A stretch of 64,000 bases of DNA from Utricularia gibba (lineage: Eukaryota; Streptophyta; Magnoliopsida; Lamiales; Lentibulariaceae), in NCBI GenBank assembly GCA_002189035.1, contig NEEC01000011.1, forward strand, positions 248,001 to 312,000. The letters run 5' to 3'. Of the stretch, positions 9,043 through 62,319 are shown piece after piece; the first letter of the stretch is position 1, and each line of letters begins with the position of its first letter. A program made the translations under genes and the position numbers. The notes below the pieces were generated by a model. That model ran no database searches and had not been told where the DNA came from. It saw only the letters and a program-made list of their open reading frames with translations.

Positions 9043-10790
9043 TCAAGCTGCGATCCCAACTGGCTCCGTGGCCTTGAGCCGGGATGAGCCGTAGAGGGTC
9101 TCCTCAAATCGAATGATCTCATTTTTGGATCCATAGGCCACTTGGGTTCTGTCATCAAGATTCTCGATCACTTTATCCAGCACCGACTGCTTCCCATCGC
9201 TGCTGTACCCACCCGCCTTCTCGATGAGGAATCCCAAGGGAGCCACTTCGAATAGCAGCCTAAGCTTCGCCTTCGCAGACGGGCTCGACACATTCGTAAA
9301 AATCCCCTTCTCCTTCACTATGATCTGCAAGCACCCCATTCATTTCCAAGGAACACACACACACTCTCTCTCTCTGGAGTTGCTGCTGCTAAAATATTAC
9401 CTGATTCACGTCAGGCACCATTCCTCCTGTGTAGCGCAGGGTGTACTTCTCACGGACGTAGTAGTCGATCAGCTGTGCCCCATCCATCACACAGTGTTTA
9501 AAAAAAAAAAAACTGAAACAATGAAAGAGAGAAAGAAAAGAAAAGCAACCTTGGCGTAGTTGGGGTTGTCCGAAGTAGCCCTGAGGTTGCCAGGTGAGAA
9601 CATCTTTCCTTCTCCAATGGATGTCGTATCCTTGACGTGTTGCCATTTTCCTGATGGATGGGGAGAATGAAGAGGATACGCAAACAACCCATCAAGCAGG
9701 ATGCGCTAAACACACACCTTCATCAAGCAGGAGGAACTCGTGTGTTCCAGGCACATCCTTGAGAGCAAGAACGTATGTGGTTCTGGGCCCGAATATCCCC
9801 ATTGCTGCCGCAGCCTGCTGAGCTCCCGTGATTCCCGTAAGTTTGTCTCCCGGCCACACCCCAAAAATTGTGCCCACTGTGAAGTTGGTGTCAACGATGC
9901 TCGAACCATCCAGTGGATCAAACGCCACACTGAACCCCCCTGCATCATTCAAACACACAATTTTTGTCAGACAATACTTGTTTATGACCTTCGGATGCAT
10001 AAATAGAGCAGACCTTCGGATGGTCCCTGCATGTCTTGAAGCTCAGGGACCTCCTCGGAGCACGCGTAATTGCAGAAATGGGAATATTGCAGCGCCTATA
10101 AACTTGATTCCGAATCAACAAACATCCATCCAGACTTGGGAGGAACACAAAAGGCGAGGTGTGTTGTTACCTCGAAAAGAAGCTTGTTTGCGAGCAAATC
10201 AACAGCGAGCTGCTCGTCTCCAAAGGTGTTCACGCAGGCGGTTCCTCCACAGGAAGCAGTTCTCACCTTGAAGGCGATGGTACGCAGTGCTTCGCCCATG
10301 CACATGAGCAGCCTGATGAGGCCCTTATCAGGAGTCGACTTTGTCAGGAACTCTTCCTGTCTCGCAAACACGACCAACACAATGATTAGCTAATGCCTCT
10401 CTGCGCTTGTGTTACCGAAAAGGAAATGGAAGGGAATTTACCAAACTATCACCAATCTCGCATCTTGTGACCGAGGAAGAAGATGAACTATTGGATTTCT
10501 TGCCCTTAACGAAGTTGAGTCTTGATTTGGGAGCAGCACGCAGGGACTCGCCAAATATGGAGCTCGGTTTCAAATCCTGAGAAGCACATCACATCACATC
10601 GGATTGCGCAATTAAGAACTCACCAAGTGGTTATTCGTTTGTATGGGGTGCCGAAGAACAAGAGAAGATAGGGAGGGACCTTAGCGGAGGTGGTGGCATA
10701 GTGAGGACGAAGATGGCGGGGAGCAGCAGCAATGGAGTGATTGTGCGCACAAGGCGGCGAGATGAAGCAGGAGATGCCGGCAGTCTCCAT
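9043..10790 (-). CDS. SBPASE: sedoheptulose-1,7-bisphosphatase, chloroplast, 8 exons, 396 aa
   Basis: It hydrolyses sedoheptulose-1,7-bisphosphate to sedoheptulose-7-phosphate in the regenerative phase of the Calvin cycle, in the chloroplast stroma. Exons on the minus strand: 10790–10680, 10576–10442, 10356–10171, 10095–10014, 9939–9718, 9650–9550, 9472–9401 and 9324–9043; all junctions are GT–AG and the frame closes. The first 70 or so residues form a Ser- and Arg-rich, acid-poor transit peptide (METAGISCF...). The mature part has [14 protein letters not shown], whose two Cys are the thioredoxin-regulated pair known for this enzyme; [14 protein letters not shown], the metal and phosphate site of the FBPase superfamily; and [15 protein letters not shown], the family signature. 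The paired CGGTAC cysteines and [18 protein letters not shown] segment mark SBPase rather than FBPase. Length matches typical plant SBPase (about 390 aa). No defects were seen. Confidence 0.97.
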
Positions 10791-20992: not shown

Positions 20993-23420
20993 TAGAGCTG
21001 GGCTTGGGTTCAGTTGGTATGGGTTGCGGGCTGGACATGTAGTTTTAGCTAAAACAAATGTTTATTACGGTTCAGAACCGTAGATCAAAGTTGAAAACCG
21101 AACCGCACATGGTTTCAATCCATTTTCCAATTATGGACTTAACCCACAGATCAAATTATAGACCCAACTCATGGATTCAATTACAAGCCTACTGTGGGTT
21201 TGGACTATTGGTTATAAATCTTTCAACACTCCAAACAAATATCTAAAATAGATATCTAAAACAAATATGGGCCAATAGAATTGTACATATTATTAATTTA
21301 AAGAGCAATACAAATGGAATAGAGAAATATAGAAAATTGGTAGCATAAAAAATGGGAACTTGAAAGAGAGAGAGTGTTTAGAATTAAATACACATATAAG
21401 TTTTATCATTTCCAAATAGAATATTACATTATCCAAATACAAACAAAATAGAGCACAAAACAAGATATCTAAAAATCTAACAACATTAAAACAAAATCTA
21501 ATGATTAGGCTTAAAAAGAAAGTAAAACATTCTATGATTCATCATCACTTTCCCCATCTTCATCTTCATGCTCATTTGAAATTATGTTTTGAACTCTCTT
21601 TGAAGCTTCAATCCAATATTTCAAGCAAATGTATGCTTTCAAAGTGTTTAGTGCTAAGCAAGATCGTTTCACCGTTAAAATTCTACCACCTGCACTAAAT
21701 GCACTTTTTGAAGCAACGGTAGATATTAGAGGTGTGAAAATATCTTTGGTAACTATAGCCAACATAGGGTAATGTGTGGAATTATTTTTCCACCATGTTA
21801 GAATATCAAAAGATCACCTTTGCAACCCTGTAAACACTCCATTGAGTTATATAACTTAATTTCATCATAAGAAGATGTTGCTCATATGAGGAACTTCAAC
21901 AAGGAGCGCACTCCAATAATCATCTTGAACCTCTTCATTTTCATGAGAATTATTAGTGACATTCATTCTATTTTCTCTAGCATAATTCTGATAATAAATC
22001 TGTAGCCCTTCCATAGCAGTATTATACATCCCAACGGCATCAACATAGATATCTTTAAAACCAAGACTATTATAATATTTAGCGAATAAATCATGTTCAC
22101 CTTTGATACAATCATCTTTCACTTTTGGTCCAAAATATTAGCAACAAGTAATAAACAAGGAATATTTCAAAATATTTCAAGAACTTCCTAACCATACACT
22201 TAATACTATATCCAAAGACATCATGATCATAGTACTTTTTAAAAATCAAACTAATATTAACTAAAGCTGGAAGTACTAGATGAGTAGTAATGTAATAAAT
22301 CTCACCAAATTCTTTGGTATAACGATAAAAAACAGTTAAAATTTCCACCAATTCAAATATTTTTTGAAACTCACCATCTTCTATTGATTGAAATGAATCC
22401 TCCAATAATGAAAATTGCACAACAACATCTTTAAAAGGTAACAAAGAACACAACATATCATAAGTAGAATTCCAAAGGGTTGGTACATCTATTTTAAAAC
22501 GTTTCCAAGCAATATTATTCAATATGCATAAATGCTTAAACTCTTTTTTCTTAGCATTAGAAGTTCTAAGAAGATAAACCAATTTCCTAAATGAAGCAAG
22601 CAAGTCATCAAGGCATTCTAAAACATCTTAAACACATAAATTCATAATATGACAAATACACTTATTATGAAAAAAAGCTCCTTCAAAAGGAGGATTCATT
22701 TTAACCTTCAAATATTTGATGGCATTGAGATTATTTGAAGCATTATCAAGTGTCAAAGTAGTAATGCATTCTAAGATGCCAAAATCAAGACAAGTATCGC
22801 AAATTATAGTAGCAATACGAGGGCCACTATGTGGAGGGCTAAATGGTTTAAAGAATAAAATTCTTTTTTCCATGACCCAATTGTTATTAATCCATGAACA
22901 AGTAACCACAATATAATCATCCTCATTGATTCCTCTCCAACCATCACAAGTTAAAGAAAACTTACATTTTAAAGAAGAAAAGAGTGAAATCAATTTCCTT
23001 TTTTGATCACTAAATTGTTCTAAAGCAATTTTGCGAGCTTTCTTTCTAAAAAAAAGAATAAAACATGGTTGTAATCGACTACAAACAAAATCATGAAAAT
23101 AAGAATTCTCAACAACAACAAAATGTTGTTCACTACAAATTAAATAAAGCACTAAATCAATTTGAGCCTTATGTAGATCAGAAGCAAAACGACCACTTAT
23201 GCTACCGTCAACTACATTTAATTGAGATTGAATAGAAGAACTTGATAGTTTATTCAAATGTTTATCTTTAACATGACGCAATAAATTACCTGTTCCATTT
23301 TCTTTTGGGTGAACGTAGAGCTTGGCACAATACTTGCATTTTGCTATCAATAACTTGATAGAAGCACTTGAGTTCTTGGGGATGGGGATTTGACAATTTG
23401 CAAGGCCCAACTTAACTTGT
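20993..23420 (-). mobile_element. decayed hAT (Ac-like) DNA transposon
   Basis: The body is a minus-strand hAT transposase pseudogene. The left flank has a TAGAGCTGGGCTTGGG terminus followed by AACCG-rich sequence (21060–21110), like hAT subterminal regions. The right terminus and the 8-bp target duplication were not found, so the outer limits, especially the right one, are approximate. It lies immediately downstream of the copia remnant. Confidence 0.75.
21535..23410 (-). pseudogene. hAT transposase pseudogene
   Basis: In order on the minus strand: a BED-type zinc finger (CKYCAKLYVHPKENGTG, then LLRHVKDKH) near 23330–23270; the RNase H-like core with LTCDGW at about 22955 and TLDNASNN at about 22745, each carrying a catalytic Asp; a large helical insertion; and, after frame breaks, WWKNNSTHYPMLA plus STVASKSAFSAGGR, the hATC dimerisation region, at about 21800–21670. 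The frame is broken at 22627, around 22112 and around 21865, and the first codons upstream of the BED finger are lost. Intact relatives have one continuous transposase of about 650–700 aa; this copy cannot make one. Confidence 0.9.
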
Positions 23421-30449: not shown

Positions 30450-33400
30450 AAGAATATATTTTCACAGCCTCCTCCCATCTTTGATGGCACCTCTACGAAG
30501 TACATAAATTGGTCGAAAAAAATGGTCAATTACCTTCTTGCTTGCAAGCTCTGGGACGTGTTTGACCCTACACAGCACAAGCTTTATTACAAATGAAGAA
30601 AAGTGTTGAATTACAAGCTCCGCAAAGCCCAATCTCTGTTGGATCAAGCCGTGGCAAATGATGCTTATGACTTAATCAATAGCTGCTCCATTGCCTTGGA
30701 AGTTTGGACCACTCTCGCCGAAGCCTATGGAAAAAACCAACAAGCCTTAGTTTTGGAGAAGGCAATGAAATGGCAGCTATTTGAGAATATCAAGATGCTC
30801 TCTGGTCAAAGCATAGCGGCTTTTGAGAAATTCTCGACTAAAGTGGTAAATGATCTGAAGCAGCTCAGCAAAGTCATGGATGACAATCGGATTCGCATGA
30901 AGATTATAAGCATCATCCCTCCTCAGTACGCATCTACCATAAATGCCTCCATCTTCAATGGTAGCATCCATACCATGACACCTAAACAAGTGTTAGAAGT
31001 TCTCAAGGGGGTGGAAATGCACTAGCAGAACTACGAGCAACAAAACTCTCATGAGTCTGCTTTCAAAGCATAAGTGACAACTACCTCTCATGTCATGTAG
31101 AAAACGGACTCACCATAGGCAAAGCTTACACCTATCAGCACAGAAAGATTCAATAATCAGAACCTCTATCTGTTTTGTAAACAAAGAAACCATCTACCTT
31201 CTGCATGCTGGTGGCATCTTGAAGAAGTGTGTGCTTACTGTAAGCTGTCGGGCCACATGGAGAAAGTCTGTCCCTTGAGGAAGTATCACCTCCTAGATAG
31301 GAAATCTGAAAGCATAGAAAAAATCACAGGGAAATTGCCAAATGTAACTCTTTAAGATGCCTCTAATAAAAGTGTTGTGGAACTTTACTCTGAGTGTCAA
31401 AGCACCTTGCTCACATCCTTTACTGATCTAAGAAAACAAGGAGCATGGCTGGTGGACAGTGGATGCAGCCATCATCTTACTAATGACCTCTCTTTGTTCA
31501 ACACTTTTTCATTTTTACAAAGTAAATTTGTCAAATTGATGACGGAAAGAGTATACCAGACAAGGGACATGGAGCAGTGTGTATTGAGACACCCTAGAAA
31601 CCCCTAAAACTCAATGATGTATACTATCTACCGGAGGCTTCACACAATTTATTGAGCTCTGGACAACTAGTGGAGAAACAATTAAGAGTGCACCTACAGG
31701 ACAATCAATGCATAATCAAAGACGCTAACAACAATATTGTACTCATCTCACCCATGGTAGACCGTATATTTCCTCTCCTCAGTTCAGACTTCTCCTTGCA
31801 ATCACAAGTTTGCTACATAGCCTCCAAAGAATCAGTGCTATGGCACACGAGGCTAGGCCACCATTATTACGGATCTATCACCACCCTTCAAAGCAAAGGA
31901 CTAGCCATGGGTATCCCCCATCTTACACATCAAGAGAAGACTTGCAGTGTTTGTCTTCCAAGCAAACAAATAGAAAACCTTTTCCCAAAACTGGTACGAC
32001 ACCCTCTCACAAGCTTGATATTGTGCTCTCAGATGTGTGTGGACTAATGAACATCGTCTCCAATGGAGGAAACAGATATTATGTCCTATTCTTAGAGGCA
32101 TTCACCAAATATACTTGGCTCTATCTTCTCAAGAGAAAATCAGAAGTGCTGCAACATTTCATGGTCTTTAAAGCTATGGCAGAAGCACAAAGTGGAAGGA
32201 ATACCTTAAGATCTGATAATGGGGACAAATAGGTCTAAATTGAGCTGAAAAATATTTGTGAAATCAATGGGATTGTGCATCGATTTACCACCCCTTACAC
32301 TCCACAACAGAATGGAATCTATGAGAAGAAGAATCGTACTATTATGAATATGGCTAGATGCCTTCTATATGAAAAGAAAGTATTGTTATAATTCTGGGGA
32401 TAGGTTGTAAATACAGTTGTCTACATTCTGAATCGCCTACCAACATAGAGAAAGAGAAAAAATCACCATATGAACTTTGGTTTAATAAGAGACCAGATCT
32501 AGACCACTTGCGAATTTTCGGATCAGTATGCTACATTCTTAAGCCAAAAGAACTAAGAGCTAAGCTAGACACAAGATCCGATATGGCTATATTTTTGGGT
32601 TATTCAAACAAAAGCAAGGCGTATCGGGTTCTAAACCTTACCTCTCACAAAGTTGAAATCAGTCGAGATGTTGAAGTAGATGAGTCAAAGTTCTTTGATT
32701 AGAAGAATCTACCAGCTGCTTTGGAAGCAGACACTTCTACCTCTCATGTGCTTAACCTGTTTCTTGAAAATGAAAACAGGAACAATATTATCTCTGATAT
32801 TCCGGGACACTCCAACCCTTCAAGTTTGTCTACAGCCACGAGGGTAGATATTGATGTATCCATCACTAATCTTCTCCTTGCTACTAATGACCATGCCACA
32901 CAATCCAATGCTAGTTAGGAAGACCCTAGCTATCCTCCCTATGAACGCAGCACAGATTTCAACACCTCAGAAAACATTGAAACTTTTGCTCCCTTAGAAG
33001 ACGACATAGAAATACTCAATCCTTCTGATCAATACCTCATACCTGAAATGTATGTGGCTGCTTCAGATATTCTTGGACCACATCTCTCGATAAATGAAGG
33101 GCGTGATAGAGTGTCCCCTCATTTCCAGATTGTGCCTGAAAATATTATTGAATCAGAAGAAGGCTCTGATACAAGAGGAAACAAAAAATAGTGACATGAA
33201 TTCAACACAGGGAATCATTCCTAGAAAACTAACTGAAGTGACTGATGAATATCTACAGAATACATTTCATGACTACTAATCTGATGACAACTTAATTTAT
33301 CATTTCCAGAGCTACAACCCAAATGACAACGAAGACTATCTAAGTGACTCGGATAAGCCTCTAGACAGAAAATGTAGGTTACTCAAGGATATCATTGGAT

Positions 33401-34240
33401 GTAATCATCTCATGCTTGAAGATCAAAATATTGCAGAACGTATGAGATGTCCAGAATGGAAAAAATCGATGGATGAAGAACTTAACTCAATTCAAGAACA
33501 TGGTGTGTGGGAGGTTGTAGACAAGCGTGCCGGTGCCAAAGTTCTAAGCGTGAAATAGGTGCATAAGGAAAAACTAAATGCAGATGGAACTCACAATCGC
33601 TTCAAATCACGCATAGTGGCAAAAGGTTACCTTCAACAAGCCGGTATTGTCTATTGCGAGACATTTGCTCTAGTAGCCCGTCTCGACGCTATCAAACTGA
33701 TCATCACCTTAGCGGCTTATAACAACTAGAAACTACACCACTTAGACATTATTATATATGTCTACCCACCTACAGGCTACAAAATTGAGAATGGGAAAGA
33801 CAAAGTTCTAATGCTCAAGAAAGCACTCTATGGACTAACGCAGACGCCTAAAGAATGTTACTCTACCATTGACTCTTATTTTATTGAACAAGGATATATC
33901 TGTTCACTTTGGGCTCAACAATCTTTGCATGGCATAGCAGAAAACAAAGCACCATCGCTCAATCCTCGGTAGAGGCCGAGTATATGACCGAGGTTACTGC
34001 AGCAAATCATGCTCAATGGCTGATCGAATTGTGCGAAGATCTGTGCATTCACATCAACAAGCTGGTCATTCTAAAAATCGATAACAAATCGGCTATCAAA
34101 TAGCACAAAATCCCGTGATGTTTGGATGCACCAAGCACATAAAGATTAAGTATCATATTCTGTGGGAATATGTGAAAGAAGGATCTATCAAGCTTGAGTA
34201 CTTACTCTCTGAGATGTAGTTTTCAGACATCTTAATGAAG
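30450..34240 (+). pseudogene. copia gag-pol polyprotein pseudogene
   Basis: Gag runs from about 30450 to 31290 and ends in a zinc knuckle CAYCKLSGHMEKVC (CX2CX4HX4C). The protease has VDSGCSHH near 31455. GAG-pre-integrase has WHTRLGHHYYG near 31840 and the integrase core has LSDVCG and SDNGDK (about 32020–32230), then PYTPQQNG. Reverse transcriptase begins WKKSMDEELNSIQEHGVWEV (about 33460) with the AGIVYCETFALVAR block. At about 33906 the frame jumps straight to the RNase H block (FAWHSRKQSTIAQSSVEAEY), so the YVDD catalytic box and around 200 residues are missing. Stops are frequent, for example near 32230, 32400, 33557 and 33728. Confidence 0.9.
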
Positions 34241-34343
34241 TGCCTCTTTCCCTCAAATTTCTACAAACTACAGGAACTATTAGGGTTGAGGAGGAATCCT
34301 TCAGAAACTGGCGAACACCTTCAATTGAATCATCAAGGAGGAA

Positions 34344-34690
34344 TGTTGAAAGGTATCAAATTGAAGGTACTTCGAAGGCTCCTATTACCTCTATACCTGA
34401 AAGTAAGGATTCTACCGAAGAGAGTCTCAACGGGAAGAAGATGAACACCCATTCGTTTCAAAAGTTGGGTTTAATTGTGTTGGGTTCAAGTCAGATGAAG
34501 TGCAATCCCATGAATGGATCTTTCTCGGAGCCCATCTACCCAATGAAGTCTGAAAGATAACGATAGAACAACGGCTCCTTACAATATTCTATACAATAGC
34601 CCATATAACAACTCAAGAAGTGTAACCTATTTTTGAAGTATTCTATACAATAGCTCCCGAAGTTTCCTCTCTCAATATCAAATATTGCAC
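34344..34690 (+). repeat. 3' LTR of the copia element
   Basis: 347 bp, starting TGTTGAAAGG and ending TATTGCA. It lacks about 35 bp of the 5' LTR, including the TATA-like box. Confidence 0.9.
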
Positions 34691-36563: not shown

Positions 36564-36959
36564 CATATCTATGTACTAAGGTATCTATGTAATGTATTAC
36601 ATGTTTGGTGAGGAGTTCAGTCTATGGCCCACCCTAGTACACTATGGTGTCAAGTAGTGGAAGTTGCGAAGTGCAACCCATTACGTGGATGCAGAGACGT
36701 GGAAATTCGACGAAAAATGGGTGAAGCCTGAATTTAATGGAGGTGTTCAGATTCAAATCCCATTACTTCGCTTGTGTTCAACTCATTAGCTGAAGGCTCT
36801 CTGCACACCTCTTGATTTTGCTTAACTCTGATTTTCTTTTTCAGAGTAGGAAAAATGTGGTTTAGTTAGCTGACATTTCGTTCGGCAGTTTTAGATTTCC
36901 ATTTTATTTTTACTTTTATTTTTTGGTTGGCAAACTGGGCACAATTCTGTTTGATCGAA

Positions 36960-38849
36960 TATCAGCAAGTAGCTTATTATTAAGTGCAGGAATACCATTG
37001 ATGTGAACTACAATATCTGAGTTTTCTGCATGAACCGCAGTTGGTCAGTCGTTGCAAGAAAATTTGGAAGCCTAGTAAATTTGGAGAATGCACAAATATC
37101 ACAAGGTTGGTTATGAGTAGAACAATCAAGTAGTATGTGTTTAGCTTGACTAGAATACAAGCTATTGTGCCACATCAAATAAGAATTCTGTTTCATTAGC
37201 TTGACTAGAATACAAGGCTATAGTGTTCAAGAACACATCAGCATAATTGAACGAAAAAAACTGCTGCGGGACAGGTAACTTGTTCATCAAAGCAAGGGCA
37301 TACAACTTAAGAATTCTAGACAAAAAGGATCTTTGTTCTAGAACATAAAGACCATTGCGCAGAACTCCCACCCCCAGGACAGTCTTAGAAGCCTGGTCCT
37401 ACAAAATCGTTAGGTACCAATGAACAAGAAGAATATAATAGCATCTAATTTAGAGACTGAGGAGGTGATGTCAAAAACTAGGAGCATAAAGAACATCATG
37501 TAGTGTGATGGTTTTTGTGAGGAAAATAGAACCTACACGAGTAGCTAAGCAAGCAGAACCATCTGGTAATAAGATGTTAATAGGTTTAGGAAAGATGTCT
37601 AAGGTGGAAAACATTGTTTCATTTGCACATAAATGAGAAGTGGCTCTAGTATCTATGATCCAGTGCCTACCTAACAACAATGTTAATGCATTATTTGACT
37701 CAACAATAGTACCTGCAAAATCCTTGAAGACATGATGTGCTTGTTCATTTGCTCCAATCTTTGATTATGGTTTTACCAATTTCAGTAGTTCCTGTTGAAT
37801 AATTTTCAAGGACTGTTTGGGCTACCAGTCAGATTTGCACTTGGGAAATCAGCAAGTGTTGCTGAATTCTGTGCTTCAGTCAAATTAGCACTATGCCCTT
37901 GGTTGACTAGTTTTTTCTTCTTATTTTTATATGGATAACCATTCAGTTTGTTTCACACAAATGACCTTCTCATTTACAATAGTTGCAAAGCATACCCTTT
38001 GGATCCTTCATAGACCTAGCTATAAAAGAAGCAGGAGTTGAGGAGGAAGACTGATCAATAGCTTTTTTTCAAGACTGATAATGGGCCAAGAAGGCACTCT
38101 CATGAACTTGATTCACCATAGCCAGTTTCAATTGTCCTTTCACCGTTACGATCATAGCATAAGCCTGATCTAGGTCGACTTCTAGCTTCATAGTGATGAT
38201 CTAATTCACAGTAGCCGAAAAGGAGTTGTTAAGAGCATTTAGAAACTCCACAAGTTTCATCATCTTAGTCGGCTTGGTTTCTTTGCACATCACACAATCA
38301 TTTGAAGGCATTAAACCATCTAGATTAGTCCATAAATTCCACATCTTAAAGTAATACTCATTGACACTCATCTAGCCTTGTGAAATACGATAGAGTGCAC
38401 GCTGAACTTGAAAAATAGCAGCCAAGTTCATTTGTCCCAGCTGTTTCTCAATAGTATCCTACAATTCTTTTACAGTTCTTGTAGAATTAAATTACTTGTC
38501 AATTCTTGTGAAATAGAATTCATGAGCCAATACCTGACAATAATGTCAACTCAATTCCACATCGCTTGAGTTGAATCTGAAGCAAGTGATTGCGATAGAG
38601 TTCCATTAACAAAACCTAGTTTGTTTCTTGCCTCTAACACCATCAGCATACTCCTGTGCCAAAGATAAAAAAATTCTTGGTAGTCAAGGATGGGGTGACC
38701 AACACTAGCCTTGGGTTATCTAATCCATGAACAAACAATGGGTTTTAGGTGTCCACCCATGGGTGTTGAAGGAGATTCAACAACTTTCTGAGATCCAAAA
38801 AATCTACTCGTGATTGCAATTGCCCTAAAGTTTCTGAAGAGGATTCCAT
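36960..38849 (-). pseudogene. copia gag–protease–integrase remnant
   Basis: On the minus strand the reading starts ATG at 38849 (MESSSETLGQLQSRV...), a copia gag. Gag sequence with stops continues to about 37900. A protease follows at about 37660 with WIIDTRATSHLC, where the family has DTGATSH; Gly to Arg next to the catalytic Asp should inactivate it. A GAG-pre-integrase segment (WHNSLYSSQAKHIL, then CDICAFSKFTRLP) lies near 37160–37040 and then homology ends. A 19-bp piece, AGCTTGACTAGAATACAAG, is present twice (about 37142 and 37197) at the junction of two frames. Reverse transcriptase, RNase H and a recognisable LTR are missing. Confidence 0.85.
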
Positions 38850-39092
38850 GGTGAACGTCCATGCTCATCGCACCATGAACAAGTGGAGAGATTAGAGAGG
38901 TCAGACAACCCTACACAACAAAGATGCAAAGGAATTTCCTTTCTGTCATGAAAATCTCTCAACATCAAACACTACACATTGTTTAATTTACAAGGAACCC
39001 TAAGGGAAATTGACAAATACAATAAACAAAGGAAACTATTTCATAACAATTACAGATGTGTCCCTGATATCAACTGAAAAGAAAGAAAAAGA
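38850..39092. other. probable copia leader or LTR remnant
   Basis: Between the copia gag start and the solo LTR; no matching second LTR was found in the window. Confidence 0.35.
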
Positions 39093-39097
39093 AGACA

Positions 39098-40344
39098 TGC
39101 TGCGTGACGTTTTCTCAACAAATTTTAAATATTTATAAAACATAAAACACAAAAAGCGTAGTATGAGTATCGATTTCAGGGAGTTGTTTTTCGTGAAAAG
39201 TATTTGTAAGAAACTTTCACAAAATGTCACGGTTTTGCAAAAAGGGATTTTTAAGATGCAGAAATAAAAGTTATAACCTAAGTGATGGGCCTTGACTACG
39301 GGGCACAGTTCCTAGGAATGAGATTCCATCTCCTTCATTTGTCCATCCTTGCCTCAGTTTTCACTGATTTCTTCCGAATAGCTGGTTATAGGAGCAATGA
39401 ATAGCCTATTCTCCCTTACACTCTGATTGACAAGGAGGCACCGAAATAGCCTCATGTGATTCCCCCATAGATGATTAGGAAGACACGTGGATTGCCTTCA
39501 ATTGCCTTCAAAACTGAATTGTGCGTGTGTGCCTAGTTGTTGCCAATGGCCAGTGGCAGGTCTGAGGTCACAACCTGTCTACTGTCGCGGTACCTAGGCC
39601 ACAAACAATCCGCTACTTCCCTCGAACCGATAGGGTCGGAGTTGGTGCTCTTCACCTTGATCTTCACCAAAATCCGCAAGGAGTGGTCTGCTACTCATGG
39701 ACCTTAACTAGGAGTCGTTACAAAAAGATTGCAACAAGACACGTGGAAGTATGCAGAATCCGAATGGAATTCAGTGAAGAATCGAGTGTATTGCTCAGGA
39801 CTTGAAAGGAAATCGAAAGCTAAGTGTTCTTCCTCCTTGGAGGGGAGGAAGAACTCAAAAGTTCGAAGTACAAGAGAGAAAATGGCAAAAGTCCGAAACT
39901 AAGTGCTCCAAGTACTTTTTATATCACTCCCTACGTGCATAAACTCCTTTGGGCCCCCTTCCCATCATTCTTTCTGTCTTGCGTGCACCAGTAGCCTTCC
40001 TTTGCATGCAAGTTAGTGCCCAATCATTGTTGAAGACTCTGACATGCTGTAAGTCAAGGGCCTTACCAGTGTCAGTCTTCCACCCACAATCGTTCCAAAT
40101 CGCGTACAAGGCACGAAAAGTCAGACTATAACCACCTGCAATACTCTTGCAACACTCCACAGCAGTCTCCTGACATGTCTCGGTCAAAGTGTGCGAAAAA
40201 AGATAGAAAATATATACAAAATAGGAAAATAGGATTTTTCTAATGAAACACAATTACTTATCAATATATTTCCTAATTGCACGACTTAATACATAATTAA
40301 CACATAATAATACCTAATAAATAACTAGAAAATGACACTTAACA
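39098..40344. mobile_element. solo LTR, family B, copy 1 (1247 bp)
   Basis: It starts TGCTGCGTGACGTTTTC and ends GACACTTAACA, and is flanked by a perfect 5-bp direct repeat AGACA (39093–39097 and 40345–40349). About 640 bp of its first half are matched, in the same orientation, by the copy that begins at 63353. No internal coding domain is attached. It separates the copia remnant from the first recognisable exon of the PHD pseudogene. Confidence 0.88.
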
Positions 40345-40932
40345 AGACATGCCTTTGGAAATTCACCATGTTGATGTGTTTCAAGAGTCGGATATGGTGG
40401 AGCAAGATAGGTGGAAATTCCTTTTAGTGTTTGAAGAATGAATTCTATATTTAAAAACATCAATGTTTCATAAATTCAGTTTGGACCAGCCTTGATTAGC
40501 TTATTGACACATTCAGTTAGTTGTTTTTGTCTATTCTTTTATAAGATTCTCTTGTCCTACAGGTGAAAGTTTGTGATATTTGTGGGGATACAGAGTGTGA
40601 GGACTTCATGTCTGTAGTCAATGAAATGATGGCACTGAACACATGCATGCTTCAGATGTCTTGGAGTTTAGTGCACTTTTGTTGCTCCTTTTTCTTCTCA
40701 TAGATTGACATACTACATTCTCTATCTCAATTATTGCATGAGAGTTATGCTGGATAAAGTTCCTGAAGGTGATTGGCTTTGTGAAATCTGAAATACCAAA
40801 AACAATTGGCAAGGTGTCTTAAAATGAGAAAAATAATTCCTCTGGTCACACAAATAGTGACTGCATAAATGGTACTTATATTGAGGAACAAATGAGAAAA
40901 GACAATCAAAAAGCTCATCCTAAGATACATAA

Positions 40933-42432
40933 GCAGTGTTTTATAAAACTTTTATAGGTTACTTTTACTTTTGTAGATATACTTTTGAAAAGTAGAAGTA
41001 AACTTAATAAAAACAAAAATAGATTCTAGTGCTTTGAACAAATTTTTACTTTTGAACTAAATTTATTTTTATTTATAATATTCATTATTTTTATCTGATT
41101 ATATTCAAAAGATTGATTCATTAGATCAGAAATTTTAAAATACAAATAAAGTTGAAAACAACATAATTGTTACACTCTCACATGTCGAAATCTCCAAAGT
41201 TGATCACAAATTGCATCACGAATGGTTTCTATTGAATTTCTTTGTGCACTGCCTTCTTTTTCTTCCATTGGATCTTCATCAGTTTCAAATATGGATCATT
41301 GTATTCACTTAGATCACGCCCATCATCTTCTGCATTAACTTGTCGAAGAAAAATATGAATTGTCATAGTTGCAACAACCAAATGCACTTGATGGCATAGC
41401 TTCAAGTCACAAGGCATGTCATTCATATTGTGAAAATGCTTTTTCCACACACCAAATGATCTTTCAATGACTGAATATAGTGATGAATGTCTATGGTTGA
41501 ACAACTCTTTAGGTCGAGTATATCCATGTCTTGAGCGTTGAAATTCTATTAAGTGATAGCACGTTCTACGAAGTGGTGCCATATAATCATTTGTGTTGAA
41601 AAAACCAGAATCAACTAAGTAATATTTTCCTTTGATCACAAAGTTAGACAAGTAAGATTGTATCAAATATTATGGTATGAAATGTTTGATTCAAAATGAA
41701 GTACCTAATGGTGGATGTGGGAACTCATCTTCATCATTACGTAAACATTCTTTTATCATCCTACTATCATGTGTGATTTCTTCATATCCTACAGCAACAA
41801 AAATGAACTGTATATTGAAATCACAAACTGCCGAAATGTTTTGAGTAGAAACCCCTTTATGTCCAATGTAGCAAACTCTTTCTTCAATGAATTCAATTGA
41901 AAATTCCTCAATTACAAAATCGCCTCATCCTTTTGAATGAGATATAGAAAAAAAATCGAGACTTAAAAAACAAGATATAAAGAGAAGTATAGCATTCAAT
42001 ATTGTAATATGAAAGGCCTGCTAATAGATAGGATTACAATCAAACAACTAGTTGAGGAATTGAAAAACTCCAATTAATGACGTATATGGAATGCAGCCAC
42101 CCAAATAGAAGAAAAACATAGAAGGAAAGGCAAAGTAGAAAAATTCACAGCATACCATAAGCAACAACCTTAAGAAAAAATACTTTTGAGTTATGTGGTA
42201 CAGATGTTTGACGACGGACTTCCAAGAAGAAGTTTTCACACACCTTTAAAAAGTATACTATGTGTGACTTCCGCAAAAGTTTTTTTTTATCATATGATTT
42301 TAATATTATCTTTAATAAAAGTATTTTTGAAAATAATGATGCTTTGAAAATAAAAAAAATAACTTTTACTTCTATAGAAGTAAAATTTCTATAGAAGTAA
42401 AAGTTCACCATATAAGTTTTGCAGAGCACTGT
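40933..42432 (-). mobile_element. PIF/Harbinger-like DNA transposon inside the PHD pseudogene
   Basis: The 1.5-kb element has imperfect terminal inverted repeats: GCAGTGTTTTATAAAACTT on the left against ACAGTGCTCTGCAAAACTT read inward from the right, followed on both sides by an ACTTTTACTTCTATAGA-like block. The flanks are TAA and TAT, a weak match to the 3-bp duplication of the class. It carries a minus-strand transposase fragment. Removing it brings the PHD exon and the NDSDGE exon of the host gene together. Confidence 0.75.
41229..41930 (-). pseudogene. PIF/Harbinger transposase (DDE_4) fragment
   Basis: Minus-strand blocks in order: YIGHKGVSTQNISAVCDF (about 41870), FPHPPLG, then KYYLVDSGFFNTNDYMAPLR, ELFNHRHSSLYSVIERSFGV and a CTIH-like end (MTIHIFLRQV). 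These carry the second Asp (YLVDSG) and the Glu (VIERSFG) of the DDE triad. The N-terminal half with the first Asp and helix-turn-helix is not present, and stops separate the blocks (about 41667). The C-terminal end is acidic and Lys-rich. Confidence 0.9.
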
Positions 42433-45400
42433 TATACAAATGATTCTGATGGTGAAGTTTGTTCAAAACTCAAGAAGCCACGTATTGAGTCCATAGTTGA
42501 GTCACCTAAGACACTTAATCCGCGCATTCCAGCAGCAGCTGGCCTTACAAGGGCAAGTTCTTCAAGGGGTGCAGAGAAATCTTCTACAGAAAACATCCAG
42601 GTGAACGAAATAACACAGAATTGACAGGCTATACTTCAAAGCGCAGACAGCAAAAGGTTCAAGGTTGTGATCTCTAGCTTTTCGCCTTCATATTGTTTCA
42701 TGCTCCTTTCTAGGGTCCAGTTCACTTGCTGAATTGTTGTTATTCTATGATAACCTGAGTCATGACCAAGCCGCTCTGAATGCTTCACGTAGTTTATTAA
42801 AATCAAATTCATTTAGTTTCATGAGTTTAAAATCCAAAGTCAAGCTTCCTGATCAAGTTATGATAAAGAGGTAAAAATCAATGAAGGAACATGCGTCTGG
42901 CTACCGAAATGAGGATACATTCATATCCAATGGCAGGTCTACTTCATTTAAGTCGGCCAACTCTTTCCACAGTGAACCAAAAGTAAAGATACTATCTTCT
43001 AGACCATCTGATGTTCTGGTCATGAAATCTGCAAGAAGGAGAGCTCCTTCTGAAGGCCAGGTATTTGTTTAAGCGGAAATTTCACCTGTTACTCCAGCTT
43101 CTGCATCAAGGATTGATAAGAAAACAGCTACTGTTGGAGAATCATTGTCAAGGATTGATAAAAAATCTACAACAGGTGCAGAAATGTCATCTTTAACTGC
43201 TGTTTCTTCTAAGCAAGAAAAAAAACCCCTGCAACCTGCATTGATATCCAGATCTTCTAGCTTTCAAATTCGAAAATTCTTTAATCCTCCTGCTTCTGTA
43301 GGTAATGTTTGTTCTGATTCTCCTAGCAAGCCTGAAATAGACTTTTATGTAAACTGCATCTTATGTTACTGAAAATGTTCTTGTTGTTTATAGCTGATTT
43401 TAGGAGGCCGTCATCACATGCTAATAGTAGTGCTGGGGTCTCATCTGGGAGTGGAATAAAAAAAATTGACAAAGGGAATCAATCTTTATTGAGTGTGGAT
43501 GGAGGTCAACCTGATGGATTGTCACGGGAAAGTGATTCCAGTGAGCAAATGAAAGTATATTCTGGGAGCCACGGTGCACGGTCATCTACTAAGCCCTCAA
43601 AACATGAAACCTCCAATGTTAGAGCTGCAATCAAAGCCGCTTTTTTGAAAAAGCCCGCTGCATATCTAAGGAATAGAAACATGGGGCAGTCTGATGCCTC
43701 AACAATATCAAGCACGTTTTGTGATGCAAGTTCGCATCAGGATTGTCGGGCTGCTTCATCTGATAGAATTAAAGTGGTTTCTGATGCAGATCAGGCTGAG
43801 AAGGCTATTGCATGCCAGAAATATAATAATGATACTCTTGAACATGAAAGTGTCAATAACCTAGGGCAGGCCTCACTGATTACAATTAAGGATCAGTCTT
43901 CTGCAGGGCATCATGATGCCTGTGCTGGAAATACCTCAAGGGAGCATTTGTACAAGTTTCCAGTGGCAATTATTTCCTTTATGAAACACATAGCGATCCC
44001 TGAACATGAATGTGTTTGGCAGTATGGCCTTTAGATTATGTGGCCTCGATACATTTTCTTATAATTTGTGTTTGTTCGTGGTTGGTTATTTAGTTACAAT
44101 CTGAATTTATGCGTAGGGGAAGCTTTGAGATTTTCTGGAGTGGTAAAATTGTTAAGTTAATAGATGGGATTCAAGCACATTTATCATCTGCTGCATCACC
44201 CAAAGTTCTCGAAGCAGTGAATAAATTGCAAAGCAGAATCGTACTCAATGAAGTGCCTCGTTTGAGCTCCTGGCCAACGCAGTTTCAGACATTTGGTGTC
44301 AGAGATGATAACATTGCACTCTTCTTTTTTGCGAAGGACCTTGAAAGGTTATTTTTTAGTTTTTTCTGCGTTTAAAGGTTATATTTTTAGTTTTTGCATA
44401 TGATGTGGTGAGTACACCTTTTTTGTTTAGCTGAAGAATGAATTTTTGCTAAACTTACAGTTATAACAAGGTTTAAAAGATTACACTTGATAATATGATG
44501 CAGAAAGACCTGGCTTTCAAAGGAAATGTTGGTAGTACCGAGCTCCTAATATTTCCTTCCTACCTTCTTCCGGGTATTTCTCAGAGTAAGTTGAGTACTT
44601 CATATTTCTCATTCATTACGCCCCATCTGATCTCTTACCTAATATTTGTCACTGGTCAGCATCTTAAAAATATCTTTGTTTTTTTATTTTCATGAATATC
44701 TCTAAAGAAGTCCATGAACTCTCCCACGTTAATCATTTTCTGCAAGAGCCGCATTTCTTACATCTTTTCCTGTCTTATTCCTGCTATTATAACTGTATAT
44801 CAATTTTCCTGCTTCCGCAGGTTGGAATTTGCTGCTTTTCCTGTGGGGTGTTTTTAGAGCTAAGAAAGAATGTTATCTGCAGCAAAATCCTGAGGTATCG
44901 AACCATGTTTCCTCTGCATATCAGGTTGCCAAGAAACCTGTAGTGGCCTGTCCTGTTGATGGATGCGCAACGAGACCTTCCAGTGAAGTTTTGGTTGGGA
45001 AACAAGTCTTGGCACGAGTGCTTGGAACACTGCCAGAAGAATTTGAGTCAATGAAAGTTACCAACGCAGATAGAATTGTTGAGGTATCTGCATCTGATCT
45101 TCCTGACCGCAAAATGAATTCTATTTACGAAGTTGAAATGCATGATAGCGCATCATTGCTGTTTCCTGTAGAAAGGGACCATCATTGTTGATCAGAGTCT
45201 TCCTGGTGATTTAACTACTGAATCTGTGGCAAAAAAACCATTGAAAGACGTGTCATTTGATGCAGAGCAACTGCAGCATCTTTCCGGGGAATCAACAGAT
45301 GTTTCTTCTGCAGCAGATTCTGGTCGGGGAAATCTTCTGTCTAGTAATCATCCTTCTCAGAAACTTGCTATCGATGCTATGGAAACATCAGTTAATCAAA

Positions 45401-46031
45401 TGCCCCCAAGAAGCATGATGGATTCTCTAGAGATTTGAAGTTAGATCCTGATGCATGTCTTTGTGAGGACGATGAATCTCTCCTTCCTGGAACTTGCGAG
45501 TTGCCGCTAAGGTTTGGTTGTCCGCGAGATGGTGCATGCAATACGCCCATAAAGGGAAGTAGTATGAGTTTTGTTACTGTGCAGATACAATTGTGAAAAA
45601 TTGCAAGGCCTGTGGTGCCATGTGTCATTTTCAGTATATATACCCCATTAATAAGTTGCCATGCTTTGCAGGTTGAACCTTTTCACACTGAAAGACACTT
45701 CTTTCCGGCCAGCTCATCACGCACGAATGATGACATGAGCTTGGCTAGTGGATCATCAAACTCCCCAAAACTGCTCACTGACCATGCCCTGGATCAGCCT
45801 CCAACTCTGGAACTCGCACTAGGTACACCAAGTGTTGGCCGTTTTCATCATCCTGTAGTGAAGGAAAAGCAAGGGATGGGCGAGTGGGCCATGAAGAAGA
45901 AAGTTCCAGTCCCAGTGACGGAATATTATCGGCAGCATCCCTCCCTGTCATGCCCCTTCCCTGAGAACCAACAGAAACCCTGCACCGGCGCTATGGAGCT
46001 TCGTTTCGGAAAGGTAAGAGGCCAGTGGTGA

Positions 46032-46839
46032 CTTTGTAAAGCAAGCTTTGTTTGTCCTTGACAGTAGGATGTGTACATAATGTTGAACAAGTGTAGGGTA
46101 GTTTTTGAGCCCCATGCAGCTTTTTTATTAACTTCTGAGGCTGAAGTATTTTATTCACTTTTCTCCTCCATACGAGGCCCGAAAGAGGGGTCCAAATGAG
46201 TCTCCATTTATGTTAAAATCTAATTCAGTTTGGCCTGGCTTCGTTTTGTTAGTTAGGTTCGGGTTATCCAGAAGGATGGGTCGGGTTGAAAATAAATAAT
46301 TTTAATTTTTTTTCTCCAAAAATCTGAGAAGCATCAAAATGAATTTTTTTTTATGTAAATTCGAAAATGTAATTCAAAGGAAAGAATTAATGATATTTTA
46401 TATTAGAATAATATGAAATTAAAGAATTGATTATATTCTGTTAGAATAATGATATAATAGGAGATGCTATTAATAAAAACTATACATAATTTGTGGTTTA
46501 TCTAATATGGGTTCAGATAAACATGAATGTGTGGAGTGTATATTAAAAATAACATTTAGTACATGAATTTAATTAATTTGTGTCATATAATATTATATAT
46601 TTCATACATGTTTAATATAATTGAATTTATAATGAATTACGGTTTTACCATCATGCATTTTGAATGAACTAGGACAAATTAAGATGATGTAAGATAATTT
46701 GAAATTAGGACAAATTTAGAGTAAAAGTACAATAAATTGGGCAAACATAGATAAGAAAGCTAGGTATCAATACACACTAGTGTTAAATGATTTCATTTCA
46801 TTGCAAAATATATTTTATGACATTTAACATAATTTAGCA
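46032..46839. other. intergenic, 3' of the PHD pseudogene
   Basis: AT-rich sequence with no supported feature; the first 150 bp may be former 3' untranslated sequence. Confidence 0.45.
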
Positions 46840-46915: not shown

Positions 46916-49874
46916 AGCTAGAGTATCTCTCTATCCCAAGAAGTCTACGGAATAGATTTAACCCACGTGCCTTCAAAGGTTTAGTGATGAAGACATCTGC
47001 CACTTGATCTTCAATGTTTACATAGCATAGTGAACCTTCTGCTCTTGCACACATTCACATAGAAAATGAAACCTGGTATGAATATGCTTACTCCTTTGAT
47101 GAAACGCCAGATTCTTGCCAAGTGCAATAGCAGACTTATTATCAATCCCAATCTCAATTGGATTTATAACTAGAAATTTGAGACTCTCCAACATAAACAT
47201 TAGCCAAAGTGCATGCTAGACAATAAAATTTGCTGCCACATATTCTACTTCACAGGAACTTAGTGTCACCACGCTTTGCTTCTTGGAACTCTAGACAATA
47301 GCAATTTCTCCCATTAAAAATGCAAATCCTGTAGTGCTTTTGGCATCATCCACGCAGCCAGCACAATCACTGTCACTGAAGCCTCTAAGTTCATATAATT
47401 CAAAGTGTTGATACCATAAGCCATAGTCTAGTGTCTCCTTCAAGTATCTCAGTATGCTTTTAGCAGCTTTCATATGAGTTTCCTTCAGATTTTTTATGAA
47501 TCTTCATACCAAACCAACAACAAACAATATATCTAGCCTGGTACTTGTAATGTAATATAATGAACCAATCAGGCTTTTATAGGTTGTAGGATTCACAGTA
47601 GTAAATTGATCCTCTATACTCAATCAGTCATATTGAATGCCTTGCTCATCTCCTCTTTGAAGCATTTGATTTCGTCCTCATTACCCCATGTCACTAACAA
47701 GCAATCAACATATATTAATACCACCAATAATTGAGAAATAGAAGTCCCAAAGGCATAAAGAGAGTGCTCATGAACACATTGCACAAATGCTTTTTCCTTC
47801 AAGTAGGCATTAATTGTATTATTCCAAGCTCTAGGGCTGTTCAACACATGTCACCATACAATGCCTTGTGTAATTTCAACACTTTTCCTTCATCTCCTTC
47901 TTTGATGAATCTCAAGGGCTGTTCAACATATACTTCTTCTTCCATGCACCATTTAAGAATGCGGTTTTAACATCCATTTGCCACATTCTCCACCTGAATT
48001 GAGTAGCCAATGAAACAAGAATTCTGACAGTCTCCATCCGTGTAACAGGGGCAAAAACCTGATCATAATCAACTCCTCATTGTTTATATCTTTTGACCAC
48101 CAACCAAGCTTTATACCAATCTATCTCACCATTTGCTTTGTATTTGATTTTTTAGAGCCACTTGACTCCAATCACAGCTTTGTTTGAAGGTCTGTCAACG
48201 ATGCTCCATGTTTGGTTCTTCTCAATTGATTTCATCTCCTGTTCCATTGCTTCTTGCTATACTTGTTCCTTAACAGCATAAAAAAAATCTACAGGTTACA
48301 AAGAGACAAAAACGACTAAAATTGCCAACTTCCTGGTAAAATTCGTGACTCTATCCAAACCAGTCATACAGATAAACTTCCAAGTGCCTTGGAATTCTCC
48401 TGGCTCGTGTCTCTCTTATTGGTGCTGACACCACATTTCCAGAATCAACAGGAGCTATCTCAAGGACCTGTAAATCATCATCAAGGGGAGAATCATTAAT
48501 GAAAGTGTATTTATTCTCAATAGGCTTCGAATCCCAGCTCTTGGACTTATTCAAAACCACATCTCTTCTAAGATGGATTTGTTGCTTCACTAGGTCAAAT
48601 AGCTTGTACTGCTTTGCAACCTGATCATAGCTGATAAACACAAGCTTTTGTGACCTCTCATCCAGCTTGCTTCGTAGTGAATCATCATTGTGTACATATG
48701 CAATTGATCCGAAAAATTTCATATGTGAAACAAAAGGTTTCATACCAATAAATGCCTCTTTTGGTGTCATGTTCTTCAGACTTTGGGTTGAGCTCCTGAT
48801 TAATATATAAACTGCCAAATAGTAGCTTCTCCCCAAAGCTCCTTCGGTACTTATTTTGTTTTCAGCAAGCTTCGCACCATATCCAAAATTGTCCTGTTTT
48901 TCCTTCCACAACACCACTTTGTTGTGAAGTCCTTACTGCAAAAAATTCATGATGAATGCCCAAATTTTTGCAATATTTTCGAAATTTGTTTGGAGTGACT
49001 CTCCCTCTTGATCAGCTCTCAGCCTAATTACTGAAAGGCCAGTTTGCCTCTCTACCATGGCCTGATATTCATAAAAAATCTGAAACACACCAGATTTAAA
49101 TTTCAGGATATAAATCCGTGTCTTCCTGTTGTAATCATCAATATAGAGCAAGAAATATTTATTTCCTCCTAAAGTTTCTGGTTTGATTGGTCCACAAATA
49201 TCACTATGGATCAATTCAAGTGGCTGACTTGCTTGAAATTCTTTTGTCGTTGGGATCTCTGTTCGTGGTTGCTTCCCAAAGATGCAACCTTCGAAAATTG
49301 CACCAGAATGATCAATATAGGGAAGACCTTTTACAAGGTGTTTTTGACTCATCATCTTCAATCTCTCGAAGTTGATATGTCCAAGTTTCAGATGTTATAT
49401 CCAATCTTCATAATCAAAGCATGCTTTAAGGCACATGGGTGTAACCACTTGAAGATCTAGTGGGAACATCCTGTTTACTTGCATTTTTACTGTAAAAATT
49501 GCTCTTTTATCATGATCAATCAAGGTGAGGGACTTGTTTTGTGTATAAAAGTCATATCCATTCTCCAGAAATTTTCCAAGGCTCAGAATGTTGTTTTTGA
49601 GATTGGGAACATTTAACACATTAGCAATAGAAACAAAATTCTCATTCCTCATACAAAGAGTTCCTTCACCTCCCACTACTAATTTAGAAGTATCTCCAAG
49701 TGAGATGGAGTCTAAACGATCCTTTAGCATGTTGGAGAATGATGTTTGCTGGCCACACATATGATTAGTCGCACCAGTATCTAGATACCAAGTGATTGAA
49801 CACAAGTGATCATCTTCCTTGGCCATTAATAGAATTGGTGATTCATCAGTTTGCTTAGATTCCATTTCTTGCAC
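46916..49874 (-). pseudogene. copia pol pseudogene (protease to RNase H)
   Basis: Protease: YLDTGATNHMCG at about 49790, with the catalytic Asp kept. Integrase: LELIHSDICGPIK (about 49230), YIDDYNRKTRIYILKFKS and LRADQEGE, where intact copies have a RSDxGGE block. The chromodomain-side segment KLDERSQKLVFISYD is at about 48660. Reverse transcriptase: WQMDVKTAFLN-like sequence near 47960 and then LLVVLIYVDCLLVTWGNEDE, where the invariant YVDD is YVDC (codon 47701–47703). RNase H: RYLKETLDYGLWY, FSDSDCAGCVDDAKSTTGFA, then IGIDNKSAIALGKNLAFHQR. The frame breaks several times (48918, about 48350 and between 47850 and 48000). Confidence 0.9.
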
Positions 49875-50829
49875 TCAGCAAGATTTTACTGATCCTATCT
49901 CTCTTGATAACACTCCCACGAATAATGTCCCATTCTATGACAATTGAAGCACTCAATGCTTGCCTTCTTCTTCTTATAATCATTTTCAGCAGCATTTCCT
50001 GAGTTGTTTTTGAAGGATCCTTGACCTCCACGGCCTCTCCAACTATTTCCTCTACCTCTGTTATGTGATGAAGATGAATTCTCATTTCCTTGATCATTAT
50101 TGGACAGATTAGAACATCCAGAACCCCCTTGCCACAGCCACGTCCTCTCCAATTTCCATGGGAATTGTGCTGCTTTTTCTCACCTCTTCCAACACCTGCA
50201 GCATTAAGGTGTAGCAGCTTAGTGGAAAAAGATTCATCATCATTTTTAAGTCTCTCTTCATATGCTTGTAATGATCCGGTTAACTCATCAACTGTCATTG
50301 TGGTTAAATCATTTGTTTCCTCAATGGAAACCACCACTAAGATGAAATTTTTATCTAATGAACCAAGGACTTTCTCCACAATCTGCCCTTCGGTGACCGT
50401 TTCACCGAAACCTTTCATTTGATTTGCAACACTTTGCACTCTAATGACATAGTCATTAACACTTTCACCAAGCTTTTGTTTCAAGCCTTCAAACTCAGCC
50501 CTTAGAGTTTGAAGTTTCACCCACTTCACCTTATCTGCGCCTTGGAATGCACCAGTCAGGGAGTCCCATGCATGCTTTAATGAAGTTGCCTCTGAAATAT
50601 TCTTAAAGTACTTCTCATTCAGTGCTTGATGAATAATTGACAAGTCTTTCTTGTCCCTTCTTTGAGTTGCAGCATCAGATGTGGGTGTAATGCCATTTTG
50701 CACTACTTCCCAAACTTCATAAGCACCAAATCTAGTTTGCATTCGGATTTTCCAATTGTCCAAATTCTCTTTTGACAACAATGGGATTGAGAATGACCCT
50801 AATCCTCCTAAGCCTCCATTGTTTGCCAT
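49855..50829 (-). CDS. copia gag, frameshifted near its end
   Basis: It starts ATG at 50829 (MANNGGLGGLG) and is open to 49855. The first 230 residues are a normal copia gag (UBN2-type): LSKENLDNWKIRMQTRFG, then DKKDLSIIHQALNEKYF, AWDSLTGAFQGADKVKWVKL and LGESVNDYVIRVQ. At a run of five G/C near 50125 the reading frame shifts; in the neighbouring frame the protein continues with RGRGNSWRGRGG and a zinc knuckle CFNCHRMGHYSWEC (CX2CX4HX4C). The in-frame tail is therefore spurious. It is the best preserved gene of this element. Confidence 0.88.
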   Translation of the reverse strand: MANNGGLGGLGSFSIPLLSKENLDNWKIRMQTRFGAYEVWEVVQNGITPTSDAATQRRDKKDLSIIHQALNEKYFKNISEATSLKHAWDSLTGAFQGADKVKWVKLQTLRAEFEGLKQKLGESVNDYVIRVQSVANQMKGFGETVTEGQIVEKVLGSLDKNFILVVVSIEETNDLTTMTVDELTGSLQAYEERLKNDDESFSTKLLHLNAAGVGRGEKKQHNSHGNWRGRGCGKGVLDVLICPIMIKEMRIHLHHITEVEEIVGEAVEVKDPSKTTQEMLLKMIIRRRRQALSASIVIEWDIIRGSVIKRDRISKILLSARNGI

Positions 50830-50842
50830 CTTCCTTAAAGAA

Positions 50843-50857
50843 CCTGTTCTGATACCA
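50843..50857 (-). other. primer binding site (initiator Met-tRNA type)
   Basis: On the minus strand TGGTATCAGAACAGG follows the 5' LTR after three bases. It matches the common plant copia primer site TGGTATCAGAGC with one change. Confidence 0.85.
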
Positions 50858-50860
50858 CTT

Positions 50861-51115
50861 TGTTGTAGAGGAAGAACTCAGTAATACAGAAATTGTTCTA
50901 TTTTATTCATCAAAAGAGGTTTCCATCCTTACAAAGATTACAACGTATTTATTTTAGTACTAGGAACACAGACAAAGGCAAACAGTTTCTTAACCATAGC
51001 AGTTAACTAATCCTATCCAAACACAACATCTTGGTAACCGCATCAGGTTCTGATCTCCAGCGTCTTCTTCTATATTGATCAGCATCTCCTATTTATTCTC
51101 CAGATTACTTCTTCA
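50861..51115 (-). repeat. 5' LTR of the copia element
   Basis: 255 bp on the minus strand from TGAAGAAGTAATC to CTACAACA. It contains AATAAAATAG, a possible polyadenylation signal, in its 3' part. Confidence 0.82.
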
Positions 51116-60915: not shown

Positions 60916-62314
60916 TGATAAACGGTTATTTCCTAATATCGTTGCAAATAAAAATAGAAAATCCGTATCAAATAAATTTATAATCCCTAATCTATACAAA
61001 ATACAAATTTAGAAAACTTGTATAGTGGATATCGGGGTCGATCACAAAGAGATGGTGCTTGCCAAGTGTTTTAGTGAGTGCATAATTCGGGATAACAGGA
61101 AGTCTTAGTCTAAGCTTGGACTAACAGTGGTAAACGAGTTCAGTAAACAAGGTAGGTAAGCAATATCAGGTTTCTACGCTAAGGTAACAGGTACTGGTTT
61201 TGACTCAGACTAATATGAGGACGCCTTAGGGACCTACGGGTGGTGCCATACTAAGGTTCCTAACTTCATTTGCTATCTTCCTACACTCACAACTTCGAAT
61301 AACCTAGGTCTACCCAAGTCATTCATCATATTTTTGGCTTAAGCTAGTCCCCAATATCATAACCAACATTGCAATTAGGTCTACCCGCATGCAAGGTATA
61401 TAGAACTAGGTCTACTTGGTTCTACTGGTTCTACCCTGGACTAACACCGACTGCTCCCGTCTTAGTTTGTTGGTCTACCTCTAAACCAAGCTTCTAAGTT
61501 GTGAAACTACTTGTTTCCCTCCTTAGGTCTACCCATGGTTTGTTAGAAACAAGAGTTAAGGAATACACATAAATTTCATCATTAACCCTAAGCACACACC
61601 ACACCTCTTCACCTTAAGGCATTCCTAAGACTCTAGCCACTCATGCTTTGGAAATAAAATACGATTTCATTCACATAAGCTAGCCAAAATGGCAGAAACA
61701 TTGTAACAAGTCAAATTCAGAAACTTGAAATGTTCAGAAAAACGGAAAGCAAATAGATAATGTTTTTCCACCCGCTATCTACTATTCACAGCCTGGAACA
61801 GTAGCGCTGGACTGGGCTCCGGTGCTGCTCTTGATGATGGAGGCCTCCCTTCCCCCTTCTAGTTGGTGTTTTTCCCGTTATGGAAGAAGACCCCCTTTGC
61901 GTCCCCCTCGCTCTTTGCTTCTTTACGCTCTCCTTCTTTTTTCAAATTCATTTCCTTTTCTTTTGCTTCACTCCATTGTATTGTTTCTGACTGCCAGTAC
62001 TGTTCCTATTCTGAACTTGCAGACTGGGGTGGCAGCAGAACAGTGCTTTTTGTCCTTCTCCGGATTTTGCGCCCTTCTTCACTTGTTCCATACGTTTGCA
62101 TGTCTGATTTTCTGCTGATCTCCCGCTAAACTTACTAAAACATTAGTAACAAAAGTTGTGGACTAAATCAAAGGATTTAGTCCACTTTTTAGCATAATCA
62201 CACAAAATTAACATAAACACCACTAAAACATTAAAAACCATATTTATCTAACTCAAACCATAATAAAATATAGCTATTTTATGTTATAAATTTCAGGAAA
62301 AATGTGTGCTATCA
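60916..62314. mobile_element. solo LTR, family A, copy 3 (1399 bp)
   Basis: It starts TGATAAACGG and ends GTGCTATCA, flanked by a perfect 5-bp repeat GTCAT (60911–60915 and 62315–62319). It shares the AAATTTATAATCCCTAAT start block and the CCTTAAGGCATTCCTAAG and TAGCCACTCATGC boxes with the other copies. It is 240–300 bp longer because of extra GC-richer sequence around 61750–62120. Confidence 0.92.
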
Positions 62315-62319
62315 GTCAT

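Follow-up and report, generated by a model that had tools for sequence, protein, structure and literature searches.

The paralogues AIPP2 and PAIPP2 (AT5G16680) of Arabidopsis are the PHD subunits of the BAH-PHD-CPL2 repressor complex, and both bind AIPP3 and CPL2, the latter through their C-terminal part (PMC7718874). The PHD finger of PAIPP2 reads unmethylated H3K4, and double mutants of the aipp2/paipp2 type are dwarfed, whereas single mutants are mild (PMC7718874).

Like Arabidopsis, where AIPP2 and PAIPP2 form a redundantly acting pair of close paralogues, the genome of Utricularia gibba contains a close pair of such genes. One member lies in the stretch of contig NEEC01000011.1 analyzed here (64,000 nucleotides, positions 248,001 to 312,000, hereafter the window) and the other on contig C328. 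The C328 copy resembles the Arabidopsis genes in having an N-terminal Cys-rich exon, a single PHD finger with a basic stretch after it, and a SPOC_AIPP2 domain (PF23121). Unlike in Arabidopsis, only one close copy is intact, while the window copy has no N-terminus, no PHD finger and no readable SPOC domain.

The window gene and its sister copy

Judged on its sequence, the window locus is certainly homologous to AIPP2-like genes with a PHD finger and an AIPP2-type SPOC domain, and it is best described as a pseudogene of this AIPP2/PAIPP2-type PHD-SPOC family rather than a working gene. A DNA search of the genome for an intact paralogue, proposed as a check in an earlier sequence-only reading of the window, revealed one close relative, on C328. 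We modeled this sister gene by hand, guided by the alignment and the splice consensus: its 11 coding exons (L004:4686-10140) comprise 1317 codons with no internal stops, and all introns have GT-AG boundaries. In the encoded protein, the Cys-rich exon at the N-terminus contains CNVCSAPCSSC, the PHD finger matches PF00628 above the cut-off (25.0 bits), and the SPOC_AIPP2 domain is complete, matching PF23121 over its full length (1-131; E=6e-46). In the available assembly, which may be incomplete, C328 carries the only second copy of exons 1-2 and of the close gene type. Three further genes with a SPOC_AIPP2 domain, on C414, C3 and C460, are distant relatives; aligning at 26-30% over the SPOC part, they were rejected as outgroups because they are too distant for branch rates.

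The sister frame ends at a TAG within an apparent diverged partial duplication (L004:10041-10280 in the joined L004+L005 numbering; C328:2372041-2372280), beyond which a second frame continues with a similar Ser/Leu-rich tail. The C-terminus of the sister gene may just possibly be slightly shortened; the sole repeat found by self-comparison of the gene end is 19 bp at 84%. Two PHD matches of identical score, at C328:2403202-2403372 (35 kb from the sister gene) and C338:30633-30803, possibly reflect a recent duplicate or a redundant contig.

The two copies share 72.7% DNA identity over 2.8 kb, and colinear matches of 68-81% identity to the C328 locus occur at window positions 36662-37020, 40341-40931, 42434-45827, 45843-45942 and 45991-46111. 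The ruined gene spans 36662-46111, with 3' flank homology continuing past exon 10 to 46111, and consists of the following features (window coordinates).

36662-37020, + strand: remaining 5' flank / 5'-UTR region, matching L004:3921-4347 by blastn at 80% and 69% identity (E=1e-10 and 3e-24)
37065-39049, - strand: internal fragment of Ty1/copia type, separating the 5' flank from exon 2; 84% identity over 2 kb to C3:4410168-4412159
39050-39097, + strand: probable exon 2 remnant left of the solo LTR; weak local alignment to L004 exon 2
39098-40344, no strand assigned: solo LTR within exon 2; TG...CA ends, with AGACA at 39093-39097 and again at 40345-40349 as the 5-bp target duplication
40345-40408, + strand: 3' end of coding exon 2, donor lost in a deletion; 80.9% identity to L004:5734-5801
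40563-40644, + strand: exon 3a, first half of the PHD finger; 4-bp deletion, TGC to TGA at 40622, donor GT to GC
40731-42663, + strand: exon 3b, interrupted by a transposon and covering the second half of the PHD finger plus the basic region; acceptor AG to AA, stop at 40820, deletion of 26 bp, 2-bp insertion at 42613
40933-42431, - strand: PIF/Harbinger-like DNA transposon inside exon 3b; DDE_Tnp_4, E=2.5e-6
42789-43301, + strand: exon 4; acceptor AG to AC, stops at 42872 and 43070
43394-44021, + strand: exon 5; open, splice sites intact, every indel a multiple of 3
44117-44347, + strand: exon 6, first half of the SPOC_AIPP2 domain (PF23121 match); open, splice sites intact
44461-44585, + strand: exon 7, second half of the SPOC domain; TAC to TAA at 44474
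44821-45146, + strand: exon 8; 3' end and donor deleted
45172-45554, + strand: exon 9; 1-bp deletion, donor GT to GG
45672-46031, + strand: exon 10 with the tail; uncertain alignment, several deletions

The segment L004:3921-4347 lies directly upstream of the first coding exon of the sister gene, a position that suggests UTR status for its window counterpart. The alignment of the probable exon 2 remnant scores 28, a value reached by none of 500 shuffles (best shuffle 26). Exon 6 matches PF23121 with E=9.3e-21, covering profile positions 3-76 only, and exon 7 matches the same domain with 8.4e-6 and a stop inside.

When the window copy is translated along the sister frame, five in-frame stops appear, each made by a substitution (40622, TGC to TGA; 40820, GAA to TAA; 42872, CAA to TAA; 43070, AAA to TAA; 44474, TAC to TAA). 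The frame is further broken by at least four indels, including the 4-bp and 26-bp deletions in the PHD exons, the 2-bp insertion at 42613, the loss of the exon 8 end and the 1-bp deletion in exon 9, with others in exon 10, where the alignment is uncertain. Six splice sites are lost or altered (donors of exons 2, 3a, 8 and 9; acceptors of exons 3b and 4), although a GT to GC donor such as that of exon 3a is sometimes still usable. Exon 1 and about 90% of the exon 2 coding sequence are absent, and the changes amount to about 15 independent disabling events. A PHD finger with intact zinc ligands is no longer encoded, owing to the frameshift, stop, 26-bp deletion and altered splice sites.

Homology, lesions, mobile-element insertions and an intact sister copy all bear out the sequence-only reading of an AIPP2-like gene decayed into a pseudogene, and the stops, frame-breaking indels and splice-site losses put its loss of function beyond reasonable doubt. 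Overall, the decay goes further than that reading describes. Its in-frame stops are real, but number five and not three against the sister frame. Its disrupted PHD finger is confirmed by the two deletions, the Cys codon turned into a stop and changes at both splice sites of the inner intron. The zinc-knuckle exon that it reported missing is likewise absent: the genome contains a single CxxC-CxxC exon of this kind, that of the sister gene. The missing 5' end holds for the coding part and not for the whole, given the surviving flank, which lies outside the interval 40351-46031 first assigned to the gene and making up its 3' two thirds. The transposon placed between exons is indeed present (DDE_Tnp_4), but inside PHD exon 3b.

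The introns of the two copies align throughout and both the 5' and 3' flanks are homologous; since introns and flanks are common to both copies, the window copy is not a retrocopy. Lesions in the coding frame are accompanied by a copy elsewhere that is open and presumably functional. With a probability of about 0.93, we read the locus as a non-processed pseudogene, one of a duplicated AIPP2/PAIPP2-type pair in which the window copy lost function and the C328 copy stayed intact. Retained introns, lesions across the exons, an intact sister and accumulated mobile elements are shared with other non-processed duplication pseudogenes of plants, with no notable difference.

Mobile elements in the gene

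The copia fragment, whose relative on C3 (L048) has frames that read by eye, with no profile match, as copia GAG-pre-integrase/integrase/RT, occupies the place expected for the first coding exon and the greater part of exon 2. In a genome search for a displaced copy of these exons, the only match was on C328; because exons 1-2 are thus single in the genome, they were deleted at the window locus, not moved. The solo LTR has more than 30 relatives in the genome at about 90% identity, several with their own 5-bp duplications when both ends are read. Together, the copia fragment and the solo LTR separate the surviving 5' flank from the rest of the gene.

The Harbinger-like element lies inside exon 3b, as its flanks are continuous coding sequence in the sister copy. 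It contains a degenerate transposase frame (41229-41669) and imperfect terminal inverted repeats (75% over 52 nt), and its relatives on C2, C244, C413 and C409 (86-89%) are truncated, leaving its boundaries approximate. It shares with PIF/Harbinger transposons a DDE_Tnp_4 transposase remnant and differs in its flanks, TAA and TTA, which are not identical where an exact 3-bp TWA target duplication is expected. The solo LTR, possibly of the Ty1/copia type, resembles such LTR elements in its TG...CA ends and 5-bp duplication. Compared with known elements of both groups, all copies at this locus are broken or solo.

Elsewhere in the window, a repeat of about 1.4 kb at 60916-62315, probably an LTR, has at least 38 relatives of 83-94% identity, mostly of the same length. 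Long open stretches at 48351-50877 (- strand) and 30597-34560 (+ strand) read as copia-type polyproteins, and two adjoining open frames at 22112-23419 (- strand) resemble a BED-finger / hAT-type transposase.

Origin of the pair and timing of the loss

The AIPP2 copies of the window and C328 differ by a Ks of 0.42 (0.35-0.48) and a Ka of 0.22 (Ka/Ks 0.52). A fructose-1,6-bisphosphatase (FBPase) gene at window 9041-10600 (- strand) has its closest relative at C328:2595773-2597446 (78%), with a Ks of 0.48 and Ka/Ks of 0.07 over the five in-frame exons, two wrong-frame pieces of the seven being left out. The two Ks values do not differ significantly (Fisher P=0.37), and the presence of both pairs on the same two contigs with similar Ks makes one larger duplication likely; we consider a large-scale duplication the probable origin of both copies. 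However, AIPP2 and FBPase are about 230 kb apart on C328 against 26 kb in the window, and AIPP2 lies on the opposite side of FBPase on C328, so the duplicated block has been rearranged, a point against a large-scale origin. A second anchor, at C328:2622487, measures only 84 bp, and there are no other neighbor gene matches between the window and the C328 locus within 35 kb. A tblastx comparison of the window with 74 kb around the sister gene, in which strong matches alone were used because joining of weak pieces inflates the E-values, gave nothing convincing except the gene itself.

Had the window copy been neutral since the duplication, 19 stops would be expected where five are seen (P=1e-4), and the stop count gives a neutral share of the time since duplication of about 0.26 (0.08-0.61). 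In exon 6, window and sister copies differ by a Ka of 0.081 and a Ks of 0.357 (Ka/Ks 0.23), and their amino-acid-changing differences total 14, compared to about 29 expected from a neutral window branch alone (P=0.002). Against PF23121, exon 6 of the dead copy scores 75.8 bits and that of the live copy 73.9 bits. The few stops, low amino-acid divergence and comparable profile scores agree on a late loss. They suggest a window copy that stayed functional through most of the interval after duplication and was lost in about its final quarter, with wide limits and on the assumption of equal rates on both branches, the estimate using two sequences and no outgroup. The fairly recent loss that the sequence-only reading offers as one alternative is upheld relative to the duplication (about the last quarter, limits about 0.08-0.6) and not in absolute terms, given some 15 disabling changes gathered since.

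In the history that we infer, including its order of events and timing, an AIPP2/PAIPP2-type gene pair would have arisen from a probable large-scale duplication, and both copies would have functioned for most of the time since. Redundancy would then have relaxed the need for two copies, and the window copy would have lost function while the C328 copy stayed intact.

The remnant and its significance

The open stretch left in the window copy consists of exons 5-6 only, and some residual transcript may exist; if parts are still transcribed, the other alternative of the sequence-only reading, this stretch would encode half a SPOC domain ahead of the exon 7 stop. It is very unlikely that the part from exon 5 onward continues to be expressed, whether as a short protein or as a new gene, with an incomplete SPOC domain. 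In favor of such expression, the frame is open across exons 5 and 6, their splice sites are intact and all their indels are multiples of 3, and exon 6 of the dead copy matches the domain profile as well as that of the intact copy, with the low Ka/Ks given above. However, a late loss would by itself leave exon 6 little diverged, the early stop in exon 7 truncates the SPOC domain near position 78 of 131, and exons 8-9 carry more frame and donor losses. Translation of the remnant would stop after the first few codons of exon 7 and yield a protein that has no PHD finger and about 78 of the 131 SPOC positions; with high confidence, we predict this product to be non-functional.

A regulatory role for the remnant is likewise very unlikely. 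Transcription from the retained 5' flank could yield a non-coding RNA, or small RNAs could be raised by the pseudogene or its mobile elements, that tune the single intact AIPP2-like gene on C328. The flank is indeed retained and similarity to the sister is strong in places (88% in exon 6), but nothing in the sequence points that way, and at about 72% overall, the identity is low for targeting by small RNAs except over short stretches. Finally, it is barely conceivable that the gene is intact in the plant and its lesions stem from errors of assembly or sequencing: one- and two-base indels are present and are typical long-read errors, but sequencing noise does not produce large deletions, five stop substitutions or three mobile-element insertions, one of them flanked by an exact target duplication, and this reading is thus refuted for the large lesions.

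Loss of a duplicate is an ordinary fate of duplicated plant genes, and the non-processed pseudogene described here does not change the general picture. It offers a well-resolved case of one of two redundant chromatin-reader genes dying. As far as the assembly shows, U. gibba depends on a single AIPP2-type gene, compared with the two partly redundant ones of Arabidopsis.
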